Of a DNA stretch of 23,528 bases, positions 6,742 to 22,466 are shown in pieces. The DNA is from a virus. The stretch covers positions 1 through 23,528 of the IMG/VR virus record IMGVR_UViG_3300047649_000003; one strand, 5' to 3'. Position 1 is the first letter of the stretch. Each line of letters opens with the position of its first letter. The position numbers and the translations under genes are program-made. The notes beneath the pieces are model-generated. The model saw only the letters and a list, made by a program, of their open reading frames with translations, was not told where the DNA came from and searched no databases.

Positions 6742-7227
6742 ATGAGCGCCACAGTATATAGCTTTAAAGATTTAGTGGGGGCGTTTTCTCATACGTCTGT
6801 TGGACAAATATCAATAGGCGGGGCAACTAATGGGACAGGGCAAATGGGTATTGGGCAAATAGTTGTGCATATGACAAACGATATAACCACTCATGAAATT
6901 AGTATTGATGGGGGGATTATACCGTTTGTCGTTCCTGTTTATAACGGCACAATTTCAATCCAATGCCAACAAACTTCCCTGTTCAATTATTATTTACTGG
7001 ATTGGTACAACAGTTTAAAATTGTCGGCTACATCAAGTGGATCTATTCCTGCTGATGTTTCAAATTGGGCTAACGCAGTTATGCTACTAAAAAATATAAA
7101 GCATGGAACGCAGCACAATATAACAGGTATTAGTCCACAAAATAGTCCCGATAAAACATATGCAGCGCAGGCCGGATCAGTAAACTGGTCGCTACTGGCA
7201 GCAAACATAGAAAGCATTAATATTTAA
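6742..7227 (+). CDS. Tail tube protein paralogue 1 (DUF3277-type)
   Basis: A 161-residue protein with the DUF3277 tail-tube pattern: YSFKDLVGAFSH at the N-terminus, GIGQIVVHM, GTISIQCQQTS in the middle, and SPQNSPDKTYAAQ followed by VNWSLLAANIESI at the end. It is clearly related along its full length to the next gene, with blocks YSFKDL.GAF.H, IG.GQ..VHM, (S/T)I.CQQTS and SPQN.PDKTYA.Q in the same order. The differences are a 10-12 residue insertion near residue 25 and a diverged segment near 45-60. It starts only 2 bases after the sheath stop and has no good Shine-Dalgarno sequence (CAGGCTTAATT), so it probably depends on translational coupling with the sheath. It could be a tube component used at one end of the tail or in smaller amount. 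Confidence 0.75.
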   Translation: MSATVYSFKDLVGAFSHTSVGQISIGGATNGTGQMGIGQIVVHMTNDITTHEISIDGGIIPFVVPVYNGTISIQCQQTSLFNYYLLDWYNSLKLSATSSGSIPADVSNWANAVMLLKNIKHGTQHNITGISPQNSPDKTYAAQAGSVNWSLLAANIESINI

Positions 7228-7238
7228 GGAGGGAAACA

Positions 7239-7688
7239 ATGTCCACTACTTATAGTTTTAAAGACCTCACGGGTGCGTTTACTCATTCTTTAGCGGGATC
7301 ATATGTATTCGGCGGCCAAATTGGATTAGGGCAAGTTGTTGTTCATATGGCTACAGAAAAAACAGCAACCGATACAGCCGCCGATGGAACCGTTCAAATA
7401 TCCGCCATTGCTGGTGATAGCGGCACAGTTTCGATTGAATGCCAACAAACTTCCGATTTACACAAATTTTTATTAGTGTGGGCTAACATCGTTAAAACTG
7501 CACTAAATAACAATGATATTAGCGCGTGGGCAACGGCATCGATACTATTAAGAAATTCAGTTGATGGCACTAGCCATACTGTAGGCGAAGTTAGTCCACA
7601 AAACATCCCAGATAAAACATATGCAAGTCAAGGTGGTAAGGTTACTTGGGTTTTATCTGCTGGGGACATTCAAAGTTTAACGGCATAA
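7239..7688 (+). CDS. Tail tube protein paralogue 2 (DUF3277-type), probable main tube subunit
   Basis: A 149-residue protein with the full DUF3277 pattern: TYSFKDLTGAFTH, GGQIGLGQVVVHMATEKTATD, the ADGTVQISAIAGDSGTVSIE block, and IPDKTYASQGGKVTWVLSAGDIQSL at the end. It is the closer of the two copies to the family pattern as I know it. Tube proteins polymerise as stacked hexamer rings inside the sheath. It is preceded by a near-perfect AAGGAGGG ribosome site 5-6 bases before its ATG, much stronger than that of the upstream copy, so it is likely the major tube protein. No frameshift or truncation is seen. Confidence 0.8.
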   Translation: MSTTYSFKDLTGAFTHSLAGSYVFGGQIGLGQVVVHMATEKTATDTAADGTVQISAIAGDSGTVSIECQQTSDLHKFLLVWANIVKTALNNNDISAWATASILLRNSVDGTSHTVGEVSPQNIPDKTYASQGGKVTWVLSAGDIQSLTA

Positions 7689-12376: not shown

Positions 12377-13003
12377 ATGGCTGATCCTATAATTACTAGC
12401 CTAACAGAACAATTAGCATTACCTGAAGAGGTTTTACGCAGGGCAATGGAGACTGAAATGTGGAATTTAAGAGTTTCCTGCCCAGGTATTATACAGGATT
12501 ATGACTCTACAACTCAAACAGCAACGATTCAGCCAGCTATAAGGGAACGAATTAGCATATACGGGAACTTAACTTGGAAGCAACTTCCTTTACTTGTAAA
12601 TGTTCCTGTGATTTTCCCTGGTAATAGCAATTATTCTATAACTTATCCAGCAGTTAAGGGCGATGAATGTATTGTTTTCTTTATGGATAATTGCTATGAC
12701 GCATCATGGCAGAACGGCGGGATACAAAATCAGGTAGAATTAAGAAGACACGACTTGTCTGATGGAATGTGCTATTTAGCTAGATGGTCGCAGCCTAATA
12801 AATTATCAGCAGTTTCTACTAATAGTTTACAAATAAGAAATGCCGCAGGTACATCGTTAGTCGAAATAGCAGGTTCGGTTATAAACATTACAAATAGTAC
12901 CGTCAATATAGGGAGCAACACAACAATTGATAATAGAGTATTTTTAAATCACACACATTCTGGAGTTCAAACGGGTTCAGGAACTAGTGGGGCGGTTGTT
13001 TAA
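12377..13003 (+). CDS. Gp138-type membrane-puncturing spike protein
   Basis: A 208-residue protein with GAGGTG 8 bases before its ATG. Residues about 33-135 form an OB-fold-like domain (VSCPGIIQDYDSTTQTATIQP, LPLLVNVPVIFPG, PAVKGDECIVFFMD, RRHDLSDG), the pattern of the Gp138 N-terminal domain. Residues 140-190 are short beta repeats (SLQIRNAAGTSLVEIAGSVI and similar) fitting a narrow beta-helix needle. The end has LNHTHSG, with His192 and His194 in an HxH arrangement like that known to bind an iron ion at the tip of P2 gpV and phi92 gp138 spikes. The spike leads the tail tube through the cell envelope. The stop codon is directly next to the stop of the reverse-strand gene. Confidence 0.8.
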   Translation: MADPIITSLTEQLALPEEVLRRAMETEMWNLRVSCPGIIQDYDSTTQTATIQPAIRERISIYGNLTWKQLPLLVNVPVIFPGNSNYSITYPAVKGDECIVFFMDNCYDASWQNGGIQNQVELRRHDLSDGMCYLARWSQPNKLSAVSTNSLQIRNAAGTSLVEIAGSVINITNSTVNIGSNTTIDNRVFLNHTHSGVQTGSGTSGAVV

Positions 13004-13447
13004 TTACTGACGGTATAGCATCATATCTGTTTTCCATTCTCCATTTGGCCATGTTTTAGATAAAAAATATTTGTGTTCGATAACACGAACAATATTATTA
13101 TCGGATAATTCAACAATCAATTTTGAATCTACTTCTGGCGCGGGGAAAATTCCTCTGTTTCTAAGAAAATATGTGCAATTTACAACATATTTAGTATCTG
13201 ATATTTTTACAATATCATCAGTGTGGAGTGTCCAACCATTTAATTTACCATTATCTATGGTGATTTCATTTCCATAGATGTTTTTTAATGCGTCAAAATA
13301 TCTTCCTTCGACTTGGTAATCTACATTATATGTTCCGTTTAACGACTGAATTATTTCCTCTCTAGTCAAAATATTAGATTGTTCGGCAAATCCAACAGTA
13401 CAAAACATCATTAAGCCGATTACCAATATTATTATCTTCTTCATCAC
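13004..13447 (-). CDS. Secreted hypothetical protein; probable moron (cargo) gene on reverse strand
   Basis: A 147-residue protein and the only convincing reverse-strand gene of the window. The first residues (MKKIIILVIGLMMFCTVGFA followed by EQ) form a clear Sec signal peptide with a likely cut after GFA. There is no proper lipobox, so export as a soluble protein is favoured. The mature part of about 125 residues has aromatic and charged strands (YNVDYQVEGRYFDAL, KYVVNCTYFL, VIEHKYFLSKTWPNGEW) but I do not recognise a family. The start is GTG 13447 (8 bases from GGAGG at 13456-13460) or the adjacent ATG 13444. It ends flush with the spike stop. A candidate own promoter lies upstream. This isolated, reversed, exported gene inside a structural operon is typical of lysogenic-conversion cargo; function unknown. 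Confidence 0.72.
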   Translation of the reverse strand: MMKKIIILVIGLMMFCTVGFAEQSNILTREEIIQSLNGTYNVDYQVEGRYFDALKNIYGNEITIDNGKLNGWTLHTDDIVKISDTKYVVNCTYFLRNRGIFPAPEVDSKLIVELSDNNIVRVIEHKYFLSKTWPNGEWKTDMMLYRQ

Positions 13448-13479
13448 TTAACCATCCTCCCAACTTGTCCCAATTTATA

Positions 13480-13508
13480 TTTATAGTATATACGTGTCGA
13501 GGTGATAA
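13480..13508 (-). promoter_or_regulatory. Candidate sigma-70/sigma-A promoter for the reverse-strand gene
   Basis: Reading the reverse strand, TTATCA (13508-13503; 4 of 6 bases match TTGACA) and TATAAA (13485-13480; 5 of 6 match TATAAT) are separated by exactly 17 bases, in a very AT-rich stretch 33 bases before the start codon. An alternative -35 (TCGACA at 13500-13495) has the wrong spacing. The -35 region overlaps the ribosome site of the forward wedge gene. Found by eye only. Confidence 0.5.
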
Positions 13509-13513
13509 ATACA

Positions 13514-13870
13514 GTGTCTTCGATAACTTATCGCAAGTTAGATTCCAATGGAGATTATATTTTTGGACAGCCTTCAATAGAATTTTTGACTGATACTGAC
13601 GCTGTTGCTCAAGCAATTAAAACCAGATTATTGCTACTTTACTCGGAGTGGTGGGAATCAACAACAGACGGCACTCCATTCTGGCAAGAAATATTAGGTG
13701 CATCTGGCGTGAATAAAAGCTCTGTAGATGGCATTTTGCAAGAAAGAATACTTGGCACAACTGGAGTCAATAGCATTAGTTCATTTTTAAGCACCTATAC
13801 CAACAGAAAATATACATTTACAGCCAGTGTAATAACCGATTATGGTACTACGGTTACGGTATCAAGCTAA
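13514..13870 (+). CDS. Baseplate wedge protein (gp25-like)
   Basis: A 118-residue protein. The start is taken at GTG 13514, 9 bases from GAGGTG (13499-13504); the in-frame GTG at 13502 is inside that ribosome site. The resulting N-terminus, MSSITYRKLDSNGDYIFGQ, fits the family pattern. The protein has VAQAIKTRLLLLYSEWWES (EWW motif), a TPFWQEILG section, and ends RKYTFTASVITDYGTTVTV. The AQ.I..RL.L...EWW and ILGT.GV patterns are typical of gp25-like wedge proteins, which make up the inner baseplate and start sheath assembly. The following gene is baseplate J, the normal partner. The reverse-strand gene separates it from the spike, though spike and wedge are normally direct neighbours. Confidence 0.72.
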   Translation: MSSITYRKLDSNGDYIFGQPSIEFLTDTDAVAQAIKTRLLLLYSEWWESTTDGTPFWQEILGASGVNKSSVDGILQERILGTTGVNSISSFLSTYTNRKYTFTASVITDYGTTVTVSS

Positions 13871-13884
13871 AAGGTGGTGATTGA

Positions 13885-15063
13885 ATGACATATACCGCAC
13901 CAACCGTTAATAGTGTGTCAGGATTAACAATACCGTTGTATTCTGACATATTGAACTATTATGTCACAAATGCACAAAGCATATTCGGGCAGGATATATA
14001 TCTCGGAATAGACTCTGCTGATTATCAGATGTTATCAGTAATGGCCAGAATCGCGTCTGACTGCATGAATCTTAATCAGCAGGTATATAACAGTTTTAGC
14101 GCAGCAACCACGATAGGAGCAGCACAGGATTCGTTATATAAACTTAACGGGCTTAGTCGAAAAGTCGCGTCGTACTCAACAGCACCTTTTACCGTAACGG
14201 GTACAGCAGGTGCTGTTATTAATTCCGGCATAGTTTCAGACGGGACAAACGAATGGTATTTACCAACTGCCGTAACATTTGGTACTGATGGAACTACCAG
14301 TGGAACTATGACCTGCGCAGTAATTGGACCTATAACAGCTTTAATTAATACGATTACTCAGATTGTAACTCCTACATATGGTTGGACTAGCATAACAAAT
14401 ACGGCAGCTGCTTCCCCAGGGACCTCAATAGAGCAGGATTCATCTTTTAGGAGTAGACAGGCCGTTAGTACCGAGTTGCCTTCGCAAACAATGCTAACCG
14501 GAACCGTGGCAGCTATTGCTGTTCTGCCTAACGTAACGAGATATTCAGTTATTGAAAATGACACCAATGTTGTAGATGATAACGGCAATCCTCCACACTC
14601 CATCACGGCAATTGTAGAAGGTGATACCAATGCTGATATAGCACAAGCAATTTACAATAATCGAGGTCTCGGGTGCCTTACGAACGGTACAACGTCGGTG
14701 ACAATAACAGACTCTGTTTACGGCCTGCCTACGGTGATAAGTTTCAGCAGGCCAACTTATGTACCTATCTATGTCATTGCCTCAATCCATGCCCTTACTA
14801 GCTATACAACCTCGACTACGATAGCGATTCAAACGGCAATAACTAATTACTTGAATAGCTTGCAAATCGGAGAAATGTTGACTATATCAGGTATCTATGC
14901 GGCAGCAATGACAGTGAACGCCAATATATCTACTCCATTGTTTTCGATTCGTGGGATGACCGCTGGCTTGACGAGTAGCCCGACTGGGACAGCAGATATT
15001 AGCGTCTTATTCAACGAAGTAACACAGGGAACTTTAGCCAACGTGACAATAACGCTGGTATAA
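13885..15063 (+). CDS. Baseplate J-like protein
   Basis: A 392-residue protein with AAGGTGGTGA before its ATG. The N-terminal section LYSDILNYYVTNAQSIFGQDIYLG, then DSADYQMLSVMARIASDCMNLNQQVYNSFS, resembles the start of baseplate J-type (gpJ/gp6-like) wedge proteins. The middle part has the family's GTAGAVINSGIV, a TDGTTSGTMTCAVIGPITAL strand block, and ASPGTSIEQDSSFRSRQAVST with the expected E.D..FR.R motif (about residues 185-200). The C-terminal portion, with PTYVPIYVIASIHALTSYT and IQTAITNYLNSLQIGEMLTISG, also fits (a helix then IG). It forms the wedge that links hub and fibre network. Its position between the gp25-like and DUF2612 genes is standard. Confidence 0.85.
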   Translation: MTYTAPTVNSVSGLTIPLYSDILNYYVTNAQSIFGQDIYLGIDSADYQMLSVMARIASDCMNLNQQVYNSFSAATTIGAAQDSLYKLNGLSRKVASYSTAPFTVTGTAGAVINSGIVSDGTNEWYLPTAVTFGTDGTTSGTMTCAVIGPITALINTITQIVTPTYGWTSITNTAAASPGTSIEQDSSFRSRQAVSTELPSQTMLTGTVAAIAVLPNVTRYSVIENDTNVVDDNGNPPHSITAIVEGDTNADIAQAIYNNRGLGCLTNGTTSVTITDSVYGLPTVISFSRPTYVPIYVIASIHALTSYTTSTTIAIQTAITNYLNSLQIGEMLTISGIYAAAMTVNANISTPLFSIRGMTAGLTSSPTGTADISVLFNEVTQGTLANVTITLV

Positions 15064-15736: not shown

Positions 15737-17026
15737 ATGGCAGGAACAAGTAATTTTCAACAATTTAACCCATCACAAAACAATCAGCTAACCGATGCTG
15801 ATTACGCATTAAGCACATATCGGTTGAATGGTGCTACCGCTGGTGTAGCACCTTCAATAGATCACAACAAACTTTACTATCAGCTATCGACATTCGTGGC
15901 TGCCATGGCCCAGGCGTTTGCTAATCATGGCTACGCGGTATCAGACGCTAGCCTTTCAACGTTAACAAGCGTATTAGATAACATCGTATTAGGTCTCAAC
16001 CCCAATATTTCATCTATTTGTTTAGGTTCACAAATTTATTTATCCATTGTTGGGACAGACTTGTGGATCACGGGGAACGCTTATTATGATGGATCAAATT
16101 GGCAAAGAGTTGATACTGCACTAGCTTCGTTCGCTTTTAATATTAGTTCTACCGTCAATATTCCTGGGCAGACTACATCGACTAAAGGAATGGCTTTCTG
16201 GCGTGCCATCGCAGGTAGTAATCCAATCAGTGCAACATATAATTCTGCTGGAGGATGGGAACTTGTCTATCTGCTAAATGGTGATAAGAGTTTAACTGCT
16301 GGAGGTAGCAGTATTACCTTGAATGGCACCGGCAATGGAACTACTGCTACTACCCCATATGGGCGATTTTTACATACCAGTACAAGCAATACATCGCCAA
16401 AACACACGGGAATACTGACCAATCTTCATGACGATTTAAGTTCTTTAGATGACAATACGCAACCTTCATGGTTTATTGGCCGGCAGGATGATTCCTTCGT
16501 TATTCAGCGGGCCGCCGCAGGCAGTTCAACTTTAACAACATTGTTTTCGATTGATAATACAGGAACATCTTCGGCAATTCCAGCAGGAACAAAATTAGAA
16601 ACTTATTGCTCTACGGCACCAGCAGGATACTTAGTTTGTGACGGATCTGCTGTGTCGAGAACCACTTATTTAGCATTATTTAATGCTATTGGTGTTGCAT
16701 ATGGCGCGGGTGACGGCACTACTACGTTTAATTTACCGGACGAACGTGATCGGGTATCTGTCGGTAAGGGGCTTACTTTCAATGTAATGGGCGCTACTGG
16801 TGGGGAAATAAATCATCAGTTAGTAACATCGGAAATGCCTAGCCATGTTCATAGCATTACTCCGCCAAATTGTGCGAGTGAGTCTAACAGCGGCTACACT
16901 GTTTCCGGTAATGATTCTATTGGAACTGAACCAATTTTTCCATATAACAGCGCATCTACTGGCGGCGACGGTGCCCATAACAACCTGCAACCTTATATTG
17001 TCACATTACACTGTATTAAATACTAG
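15737..17026 (+). CDS. Tail fibre protein with tail-collar domain
   Basis: A 429-residue protein with AGGAGG 9-10 bases before the ATG. Residues about 1-95 form an anchor (NFQQFNPSQNNQLTDADYAL, LYYQLSTFVAAMAQAFANHGY) that recurs in the next fibre. The middle, about 100-280, is beta-rich with many Ser/Thr/Gly. Residues about 283-345 are a phage tail-collar domain (GTKLETYCSTAPAGYLVCDG, TYLALFNAIGVAYGAGDG, TFNLPDERDRVSVGKG), the domain of T4 gp12 and many phage fibres, which often binds metal and takes part in trimer assembly. The C-terminal part has EMPSHVHS and GAHNNLQPYIVTL. This gene probably encodes a receptor-binding or short fibre. No chaperone gene is directly next to it. Confidence 0.75.
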   Translation: MAGTSNFQQFNPSQNNQLTDADYALSTYRLNGATAGVAPSIDHNKLYYQLSTFVAAMAQAFANHGYAVSDASLSTLTSVLDNIVLGLNPNISSICLGSQIYLSIVGTDLWITGNAYYDGSNWQRVDTALASFAFNISSTVNIPGQTTSTKGMAFWRAIAGSNPISATYNSAGGWELVYLLNGDKSLTAGGSSITLNGTGNGTTATTPYGRFLHTSTSNTSPKHTGILTNLHDDLSSLDDNTQPSWFIGRQDDSFVIQRAAAGSSTLTTLFSIDNTGTSSAIPAGTKLETYCSTAPAGYLVCDGSAVSRTTYLALFNAIGVAYGAGDGTTTFNLPDERDRVSVGKGLTFNVMGATGGEINHQLVTSEMPSHVHSITPPNCASESNSGYTVSGNDSIGTEPIFPYNSASTGGDGAHNNLQPYIVTLHCIKY

Positions 17027-17037
17027 GAGGCGGAATA

Positions 17038-18144
17038 ATGCCCGGGAGTAATAATTTTTTACAATTTGATTCTACTTTAAATAATGCTTATAGTGATGCT
17101 AATTATGCTGAATTATCTCAAATAGCAAAAGGTATACAAATAGGTATTGCTGATCCGATGATGCACAATAAGCTATTTTACCAGCTGTCAACGTTTGTAG
17201 CAGCTTACGCGCAAGTATTTGCCAATCTTGGATACGTTGTTAATGATAGCAGCATATCAGCTTTGACTACCGTTTTAAGCAATACATTGACTACTAATAG
17301 TCTATGGCAATCATTCACTGGCGATTTTCATAGCCAAACAACTAAAGGCTTTTATGTTACAGCAGCAGCTGGTCAAACCGATGCTCCTACGTCTGGTGAT
17401 AAATATTATCTAATTGTAGCGACTACCGGAACGCTAGTCTATCATTTAGCGATTGACGCAGCAACAGGACTTTTCTATTTTGAAATATATAATACAACAT
17501 GGTCAGCATGGTCACAAATGCCGAGTGGTGCTAGTGGAAGTGTCACTGCTGTTATGCTGGCGACAGGAGCTGCTATAGCTAACATTGGTTATATTCCTGC
17601 CAATAAAGCAGGTGATACTTTTACAGGCACGGTAACCGCTCCTAATTTTAGTGGCCCGTTAACGGGCAATGTAACAGGTAATTTAACTGGTTCCGTAACA
17701 GGCAATGTAACTGGTAATGTAAGCGGAAGTTCTGGAAGCTGTATGGGAAATTCAGCTACAACTACATTGGCGGCAGCAGCAACAGAATTAGCTAATGCAA
17801 GGCTAATCAATGGAATTAGCTTCAACGGGACTGCCAATATAGCTAATGCTGATTATGTAGTGGCTCAATCATTAGGAACAAACGGTTATACAAAATGGAA
17901 CAGTGGGAAAATCGAGCAATGGGGAAGTAGTACTGTCGGTGGTGGTAGCCAGGTTACTATTACTTTTCCTACAAGTTTTGTTTCTGCCGTATATGATATA
18001 AATCCTACTCTGACAAACTATACTCTTGGAACCTCTGGAAACAACGACGGAGTATTGGCTGTTGCTAGTTATGGATTGAGTTCATTCAATGTTTGCGCAG
18101 GATCAAGTAGCGGCACATTTACTTGGCATGCGATCGGAGTGTAG
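17038..18144 (+). CDS. Tail fibre protein with TGNV repeat and gp53-like C-terminus
   Basis: A 368-residue protein starting 11 bases after the previous fibre, behind TAGGAGGCGG. Residues about 1-85 repeat the anchor of the upstream fibre: MPGSNNFLQFDSTLNNAYSD and LFYQLSTFVAAYAQVFANLGY have the same order and spacing. Residues about 95-165 are a shaft (SLWQSFTGDFHSQTTKGFY), then a repeat of T-G-N-V units at 208-233. The last part, about 275-368, begins NGYTKWNSGKIEQWGSS and ends SGTFTWHAIGV, matching the gp53-like C-terminal domain of fibre proteins that bind the cell surface or act in trimerisation. It may pair with, or replace, the first fibre. Directly after the stop is a terminator-like hairpin. 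Confidence 0.75.
   Translation: MPGSNNFLQFDSTLNNAYSDANYAELSQIAKGIQIGIADPMMHNKLFYQLSTFVAAYAQVFANLGYVVNDSSISALTTVLSNTLTTNSLWQSFTGDFHSQTTKGFYVTAAAGQTDAPTSGDKYYLIVATTGTLVYHLAIDAATGLFYFEIYNTTWSAWSQMPSGASGSVTAVMLATGAAIANIGYIPANKAGDTFTGTVTAPNFSGPLTGNVTGNLTGSVTGNVTGNVSGSSGSCMGNSATTTLAAAATELANARLINGISFNGTANIANADYVVAQSLGTNGYTKWNSGKIEQWGSSTVGGGSQVTITFPTSFVSAVYDINPTLTNYTLGTSGNNDGVLAVASYGLSSFNVCAGSSSGTFTWHAIGV
17659..17736 (+). repeat. Tandem 12-base repeats coding for (T-G-N-V)-type units
   Basis: Bases 17659-17736 encode six to seven degenerate units of about 12 bases each, LTG, NVTG, NLTG, SVTG, NVTG, NVSG, SSG, in the second fibre. The period of 4 residues fits a beta-structured shaft in a trimer. 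The copies are imperfect at DNA level, so the repeat is partly diverged. Unit number could vary between strains by slippage. Confidence 0.8.
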
Positions 18145-21177: not shown

Positions 21178-21532
21178 CTCTGAGACACTTAAATCGTTGA
21201 TTTGCGGGGCAGTATCGGAAGCAATGACTCCTTATATTGAAGCGATAACAAAACAAAACGGCAGAATTCTCGTATTAGAAACTATAAATACGCAGGAAAA
21301 AGGACTTTGCCCACAAAATTGTCCCTGCCAAAACCGACTTAATCAGCAGTCTACACAGATCACGCAAACTACCGAATCAGCAAAAGTTGCTCATCATCGT
21401 ATTGACGGGGTATTTAAAACGGCGGCAATTGTAGGGGGCTCTGTTAGCGGCGCAGTCACACTGTTGTTGATGGCAATTCAAATATTATTACAATGGCATG
21501 GTAGTGTGACTAAGTTTCTAGGGGGCAGTTAA
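21158..21532 (+). CDS. XhlA-like holin-associated protein, tail-anchored
   Basis: A 124-residue protein whose ATG lies inside the preceding gene (AGGTGAAGC ribosome site 3-9 bases before). Residues 1-85 are polar and helical, with a Cys cluster CPQNCPC (51-57) in the middle; residues about 87-112 form one membrane segment (TAAIVGGSVSGAVTLLLMAIQILL). The short RIDGVFKTAAIVGG junction is a pattern often seen in XhlA-type proteins, which join a cytoplasmic helix to one C-terminal membrane helix and work with a holin and an amidase in PBSX-like phages. Position before an amidase fits. The Cys cluster is not part of XhlA as I know it. Its stop overlaps the next ATG by one base. Confidence 0.55.
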   Translation: MAEIRIDSETLKSLICGAVSEAMTPYIEAITKQNGRILVLETINTQEKGLCPQNCPCQNRLNQQSTQITQTTESAKVAHHRIDGVFKTAAIVGGSVSGAVTLLLMAIQILLQWHGSVTKFLGGS

Positions 21533-22002
21533 TGGATAGCGACGAGAAAAGCGAATTGCAAGCCTTTATCATGTGTGCCACCGATGCTCTGAATACGACA
21601 ATATGCTTTATTATGGGCGTTATTGCCAGTGGACTAACTAATCATATTGTCTTGGTAACCTCGCTAATATTGGCTGTATCCGGTGCCCTGTCGATGTCAA
21701 GCGGCGAGTATACAAGCAATGAACCGCTATCTGGCTGGAAATCTGCAATAGGCGCATCCATAACGGGGTTTGTTTCTTTTATCGCTTGTTCGCTAATCCC
21801 CATATTGCCGTTTTTCTGGCTAGTGGGAGTTCCGGCGATGATAACAAGTATTATGTTGGGCACGGTCGTATTGTTCGCAGTAGGAGCAATTGGCGCAAGA
21901 TTTACTAACAAATCTGTCATTAGGAATGGTATAAGACAGGTTGTTTTAGGGCTGATAATTGTATCAATAAGTTATCGGCTTGGATTGAAGATTGGAGGTT
22001 GA
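21532..22002 (+). CDS. Compact VIT1/CCC1-like membrane protein lacking the cytoplasmic metal-binding domain
   Basis: A 156-residue protein with about five membrane segments (roughly 12-33, 37-57, 72-98, 101-123 and 133-152). It resembles the VIT1/CCC1 family of Fe/Mn transporters: ATDALNTTICFIMGVIA (Asp18) matches the first helix motif, GALSMSSGEYTS (Met55, Glu59) the second, and SITGFVSFIACSLIPILPFF, GARFTNKS and RQVVLGLIIVSISYRLG the last three. Usual members are 220-250 residues and carry a cytoplasmic helical metal-binding domain between helices two and three; here helix three starts about ten residues after GEYTS, so that domain is missing. It overlaps the XhlA-like gene by one base and is followed by the HNH-like gene. 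It may be a holin or an envelope/metal modifier; the family call is fairly firm, the function open. Confidence 0.68.
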   Translation: MDSDEKSELQAFIMCATDALNTTICFIMGVIASGLTNHIVLVTSLILAVSGALSMSSGEYTSNEPLSGWKSAIGASITGFVSFIACSLIPILPFFWLVGVPAMITSIMLGTVVLFAVGAIGARFTNKSVIRNGIRQVVLGLIIVSISYRLGLKIGG

Positions 22003-22004
22003 CA

Positions 22005-22466
22005 ATGGTAGCTGAACATATTGAAAAACATTCTTTACACGAAGTTGATGTTAGGCCGGATCACGGCAAACGCGACACACCAAAATTTCACAAGTCCAAG
22101 AAACGGCTTGAAGAAGATGGGCACCAACAGTGTTACGTGTTTGGCTGTAAAAATACTAATATTCAGACTCATCATAGGTATGAATTTTCATTCGAGAATA
22201 TCTGTGATTATGACAAATTGAAGGCTTATTTACTTGGTCATGATACTTACGGCTATTCCAAGCTAATGGAAAATTTGCCTATCGAATCAGTTGACGATGT
22301 AAGAAACCTAGTCAACTATTGCCAAGAACATCATACAGGAATTGACCACGAAGATGGCGGGTCCGGCATCGGCATACACGAAGTAACCGAGCCGGTGCCG
22401 CAAAATGGTGAGACAATTGAACAAGTTATGCAAAGAGTTAAAGAACACGAAAGGAAGGCGGTATAA
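22005..22466 (+). CDS. HNH-like zinc-binding protein
   Basis: A 153-residue protein. The ATG at 22005 lies six bases after GGAGG (21994-21998); the in-frame TTG at 21999 directly abuts that ribosome site and is unlikely. A possible zinc site is made of Cys43-x4-Cys48 and Cys106-x2-His109, with THH (56-57), and NLVNYCQEHH-GIDH in the position that HNH proteins have for NL..LC..CH...H. The C-terminal 40 residues are acidic and helical (IEQVMQRVKEHER). It thus looks like an HNH-fold nuclease or a non-catalytic relative. It lies between the VIT-like gene and the amidase, an unusual location, since phage HNH genes more often adjoin the terminase. The start overlaps nothing but is only 2 bases from the preceding stop. 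Confidence 0.6.
   Translation: MVAEHIEKHSLHEVDVRPDHGKRDTPKFHKSKKRLEEDGHQQCYVFGCKNTNIQTHHRYEFSFENICDYDKLKAYLLGHDTYGYSKLMENLPIESVDDVRNLVNYCQEHHTGIDHEDGGSGIGIHEVTEPVPQNGETIEQVMQRVKEHERKAV

Follow-up and report, generated by a model that had tools for sequence, protein, structure and literature searches.

Moron genes and the baseplate operon of phage P2

In phage P2 the genes of the baseplate operon are arranged in the order V-W-J-I. The same order of spike, gp25-like wedge, J and I genes was found in the window analyzed here, i.e., the whole viral DNA stretch of 23,528 nucleotides, but in contrast to P2 a reverse gene is located at the V/W boundary. In the following, this gene is called the cargo gene. 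Criteria for the recognition of phage morons have been published (PMC2920897), and genes antisense to lytic genes were described as typical accessory loci, one of them being transcribed from its own promoter (PMC7067206). Like phage morons (PMC2920897; PMC7067206), the cargo gene of the window is a single gene between conserved phage genes which is absent in relatives. It has a lower GC content, lies on the strand opposite to the lytic genes and occupies a site at which different phages carry different genes. It differs from the described morons in its promoter and terminator, which are only candidate or weak signals, and in belonging to an orphan family seen in one phage. A similar case is STMMW_20121 of the Salmonella prophage ST64B (PMC7067206), which is also antisense to prophage lytic genes and was proposed as an accessory locus. 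Its transcription from an own promoter was observed, whereas the promoter of the cargo gene is only a candidate.

It is quite likely, judged from the sequence and its relatives, that the cargo gene is a moron: a single accessory gene in reverse orientation that has a ribosome site, and probably also a promoter, of its own and is located at the spike (P2 V-like)/wedge (P2 W-like) boundary of a probably temperate myovirus. The general phenomenon of passenger genes carried for the host cell is already known, while the protein is new. No literature on opposite-strand morons in baseplate operons was found. The locus offers a clean before/after view of cargo entry into that part of the myovirus genome which is under the strongest constraint.

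Identification of a reverse-strand gene for a predicted exported protein

The cargo gene is located on the minus strand (13004-13447) and encodes a protein of 147 amino acids if translated from GTG 13447, or of 146 amino acids from ATG 13444. A Shine-Dalgarno sequence (GGGAGG, minus strand, 13456-13461) lies 8 nt before the GTG. The protein is predicted to start with a type I signal peptide of 20 residues, MKKIIILVIGLMMFCTVGFA (13385-13444, minus strand), with cleavage before EQ. This prediction is based on sequence reading and on the hydropathy profile, which has its peak of 3.0 at residues 4-17. A second hydrophobic stretch and a lipobox were looked for by hydropathy and sequence, and none was found. 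The stop codon of the cargo gene (TAA, 13006-13004) is flush with that of the spike gene (TAA, 13001-13003), so that both genes are arranged tail-to-tail, and the cargo gene is divergent from the gp25-like wedge gene. All remaining genes of the window are located on the plus strand. The preliminary description, which had reported a lone reverse gene for an exported protein of 147 residues with flush stops against the spike, is confirmed in these points.

With a GC content of 0.311 the cargo gene is the lowest among the genes of the window (whole window 0.403). Among the six frames, that of the cargo gene has the highest codon score and alone reaches a positive value, yet this value is weak (0.05). 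AT-richness and weak codon score would fit a chance open frame in an AT-rich spacer. However, a frame of this length was reached in only 1 of 5000 shuffled versions of the 498 bases of this region, Shine-Dalgarno sequence and signal peptide are correctly placed, and the relatives do not have such a spacer. A chance frame is therefore hardly credible, and the minus-strand frame 13004-13447 is a real gene. The GC content at third codon positions (0.27) is normal for the phage, and codon usage thus gives no proof of a foreign origin.

Both neighboring genes are intact according to profile matches and homologue alignment. The upstream gene (12377-13003, plus strand) encodes a gpV-like spike with matches to PF18352 and Apex (PF18946), and this spike retains its own apex motif. 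The downstream gene (13514-13870, plus strand) encodes the gp25-like baseplate wedge protein (phrog_120). Its start had been placed at 13502 before, but homologue alignment favors GTG 13514 instead, which is most likely the true start. The Shine-Dalgarno sequence of the wedge gene (GAGGTGA, plus strand, 13499-13505) lies at the right-hand end of the insert and stands outside the spike gene. During lytic growth, the wedge gene would be translated from its own ribosome site and not by coupling to the spike. It is followed by the baseplate J gene (13885-15063, plus strand, PF04865), which served as marker for finding relatives.

Comparison of the spike-wedge junction in related phages

In viral contigs, relatives were gathered with the J protein and by aligning J, spike and I; in GTDB contigs, they were gathered with J. 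The presence of the gene at this place in all relatives had been named beforehand as one finding that would speak against a moron. The cargo gene was found at none of 159 distinct homologous spike-wedge junctions, which favors a moron. A search for it in 17 related records gave one match with an E-value of 0.4, which is a chance match. In an earlier count, a gap between spike and wedge was absent in 82 of 122 junctions and had a length of 1-50 nt in 21 of 122.

The window clusters with L032, L035 and L135 (support 0.72) in a tree based on hub, spike, wedge and J, and L116 together with L134 joins this clade next (support 1.0). In L032 and L035 the start codon of the wedge gene overlaps the stop codon of the spike gene (ATGA), and in L135 and L134 the two codons touch each other. 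As the closest relatives have overlapping or touching genes, about 500 bases were gained in the lineage of the window with both neighbors left unharmed. By this comparison, the cargo gene is a precise insertion at the spike/wedge boundary. A search for target-site duplications and flanking repeats at the insert gave only matches of the chance type.

Other genes located at the junction and elsewhere in the operon

This junction is occupied by a reverse gene in two further phages. In one of them, L068, of which L116 is a longer copy (IMGVR_UViG_3300037149_000031, 3300037243_000030), the gene encodes an exported protein of 215 amino acids with a signal peptide. Its GC content is 0.30 compared to 0.42. 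This gene shares with the cargo gene of the window the junction, the reverse strand, the export of its product and the low GC content, and its stop overlaps with that of the spike gene. Its product differs in length and is dissimilar in sequence. In L036 and its copy L117 (IMGVR_UViG_3300031577_000001), junction and strand are also the same, but the gene encodes a membrane protein of 134 amino acids with a zinc ribbon and a TM2 domain (PF05154, E 3e-12; phrog_10772) and without a signal peptide. Here the GC content is 0.37 compared to 0.43. No sequence similarity to the cargo protein of the window was found for either of these proteins. At one and the same boundary, each of three phages has a reverse gene of its own, and in other relatives the spike gene overlaps there with the wedge gene.

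At the other junctions, reverse genes were found in 1 of 155 cases between hub and spike, in 0 of 163 between wedge and J, and in 1 of 158 between J and I, the latter being doubtful. This contrast suggests an enrichment of reverse cargo at the spike-wedge junction, but it does not reach significance (p 0.10 for all cases, 0.05 without the doubtful case, 0.16 without the window). These statistics are biased because the window itself chose the site. In the distant relative L188, a forward gene for an exported-looking protein of 113 amino acids and a reverse gene of 118 codons' product length (118 amino acids) are located between hub and spike (L188:3030-3739), which makes this junction a second place for cargo. 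The reverse gene has a GC content of 0.41 compared to 0.53.

Forward genes were found at the spike-wedge junction as well. In L153, L155, L160 and L175, a gene for about 95-106 amino acids with PAAR-like repeats is located there, and from these repeats, as seen by eye, it reads as a PAAR-type spike tip. The spikes of these four phages lack the HTHSGV apex tail. The boundary therefore takes up structural genes too, and by analogy the cargo gene might encode a late structural or assembly protein, e.g., a tip or a chaperone, which became reversed by happenstance. This is very improbable in view of the signal peptide, the orientation opposite to the late operon and the absence of a match to tail families; moreover, the spike of the window keeps its own apex motif and the relatives manage without the cargo. 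Between spike and wedge of L039 (2177-2521) and L053 (3203-3562), forward genes for coiled-coil-like proteins of 114-119 amino acids were observed. They look homologous to each other and do not belong to a named family.

Temperate relatives of the window phage

No integrase gene was found in the window, a fragment of 23.5 kb, and lysogeny is therefore inferred from the relatives. Of 29 related records, 18 encode a tyrosine recombinase (PF00589) and 7 a serine-recombinase resolvase domain (PF00239); most of the longer relatives have a recombinase gene. The tyrosine recombinase occurs in the two other phages with reverse cargo, G415 and G416, and in the close cargo-free relative G417. Another cargo-free relative, G002, carries a gene for a large serine recombinase and a repressor-like gene just after the late operon. 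The Paenibacillus prophages L018 and L019 are also relatives, with 45-47% identity in J. The window phage is thus probably a temperate myovirus.

Transcription signals of the cargo gene

For the cargo gene, a candidate sigma-70 promoter was located on the minus strand (13480-13508). It consists of TTATCA (13508-13503), a spacer of 17 nt and TATAAA (13485-13480). An alternative candidate, TCGACA-17-TAAATT (13500-13472, minus strand), overlaps with it. The first candidate matches 9 of 12 consensus positions, a value equaled by 25% of shuffled sequences (P 0.25), and it is therefore not above chance. Of the promoter proposed in the preliminary description, the geometry could be confirmed but not a match better than chance; its -35 element does overlap the ribosome site of the wedge gene, as had been stated (13508-13503 and 13499-13505, respectively). 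At the corresponding position in L068, TTGTCA-17-TATAAT matches 11 of 12 positions, which is equaled by 0.1% of shuffles (P 0.001), and the -35 element abuts the Shine-Dalgarno sequence of the wedge gene. L036 also has a TATAAT, but its -35 element is poor. A constitutive or host-controlled promoter is presumed in the short divergent region upstream of the cargo gene.

A consensus scan for a terminator after the cargo gene revealed only weak hairpins, and no RNA families were found. In L068 the spike gene contains a terminator-like hairpin of 9 pairs (minus strand, 1163-1188), about 213 nt past the reverse cargo, and it could end the transcript of the latter.

As no clear terminator separates the cargo stop from the spike gene, read-through into the spike is possible. 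The insert might then be mainly a source of antisense RNA, with a transcript that would extend over spike and hub and silence a related phage on its entry, the protein being secondary. In a Salmonella prophage, antisense RNA over structural genes does give superinfection exclusion (PMC7067206). Nevertheless, a frame of 146 codons with Shine-Dalgarno sequence and signal peptide demands an explanation at the protein level, the promoter is only a candidate, and in L068 the hairpin some 213 nt into the spike gene could stop the transcript. We consider this explanation improbable. A slightly less probable, combined scenario is that the spike/wedge boundary serves specifically for the exchange of reverse cargo, most of it exported, whose message doubles as spike-antisense RNA, so that protein and RNA together form a barrier to related phages.

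The preferred reading remains that of a moron, and it is well supported because of the comparison with relatives. The earlier interpretation as a moron is supported in part: the absence from 159 junctions, the tight junctions in the closest relatives, the reverse cargo in two relatives and the temperate relatives speak in its favor, while the promoter does not. Since the late genes run in the opposite direction and would be silent in the prophage, transcription of the cargo gene in the lysogen may start at a host-type promoter next to the Shine-Dalgarno sequence of the wedge gene. During lytic growth, late transcription coming from the left would oppose transcription of the cargo gene.

Homologues, predicted fold and possible function of the cargo protein

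No homologue of the cargo protein was found in Pfam, PHROGs, NCBIfam, PADLOC or PDB sequences, nor in phages, plasmids, viral contigs or GTDB contigs, the contig scans reaching close relatives only. This agrees with the earlier statement that the mature protein matches no family. Concerning known superinfection-exclusion proteins, no Pfam, PHROG, NCBIfam or PADLOC match of the cargo protein passes. Four matches (E 0.0006-0.01 per genome) were obtained among 398 genomes of the Paenibacillus phylum. As judged by eye, the matching frames encode other proteins, including one M16-type peptidase and one ABC transporter, and the matches were thus rejected as chance.

The full-length protein was modeled with AlphaFold2 from the single sequence (mean pLDDT 62). 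The model has the order helix-strand-helix-four strands, and its top structural matches are nearly all NTF2, cystatin or VirB8 folds (best Z 7.4 over 80 residues, rmsd 3.3). Accordingly, the cargo might be a soluble periplasmic ligand- or peptide-binding protein with a cystatin/NTF2-like fold which helps the host in metabolism or under stress rather than excluding phages. The moron reading includes this case, which adds nothing to its probability. Such a function is possible but rather doubtful, as the confidence of the model is low and Foldseek against the PDB gave no E-value below 0.05. In addition, a model of the mature protein alone (AlphaFold2, pLDDT 67.5) has a different topology, without any structural match above Z 4; its list of matches is headed by RelE-like chains (Z 4 or less). 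The NTF2/cystatin fold was not reproduced, and because the two models disagree, no fold was assigned.

As a moron product, the cargo protein would be exported by Sec, and its place of action would be the periplasm or the cell surface. Export and accessory status together make a role in the envelope most likely, and our best guess is an envelope-located superinfection-exclusion or fitness factor. The junction is thus a place to seek new exported prophage proteins, and the orphan protein is a candidate for phage exclusion.

Further observations in the window and in related records

In the late/lysis region of the window, a gene for a VIT-family membrane protein was found (21532-22002; PF01988, E 8e-22), which is an unusual phage cargo. 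It adjoins an HNH endonuclease gene (21999-22466, phrog_8048). Two tandem paralogous tail genes (6742-7227 and 7239-7688) both match a single gene of the cargo-free relative G002. Likewise, two consecutive tail-fibre-like genes (15737-17026 and 17038-18144) have a common N-terminal domain, and both match the start of one and the same gene in relatives. G416 carries more reverse-strand genes (37068-37985 and 42054-43160; L198 and L199) with GC contents of 0.29 and 0.27, respectively. The L198 gene begins like an NAD-dependent epimerase. As a ParA-like gene is present in the G416 record, it may be a phage-plasmid. Finally, the hub gene of L005 and L010 is longer by about 560 nt, located between residues 270 and 278 of the hub; this additional sequence lies within one long hub frame and represents an inserted domain.
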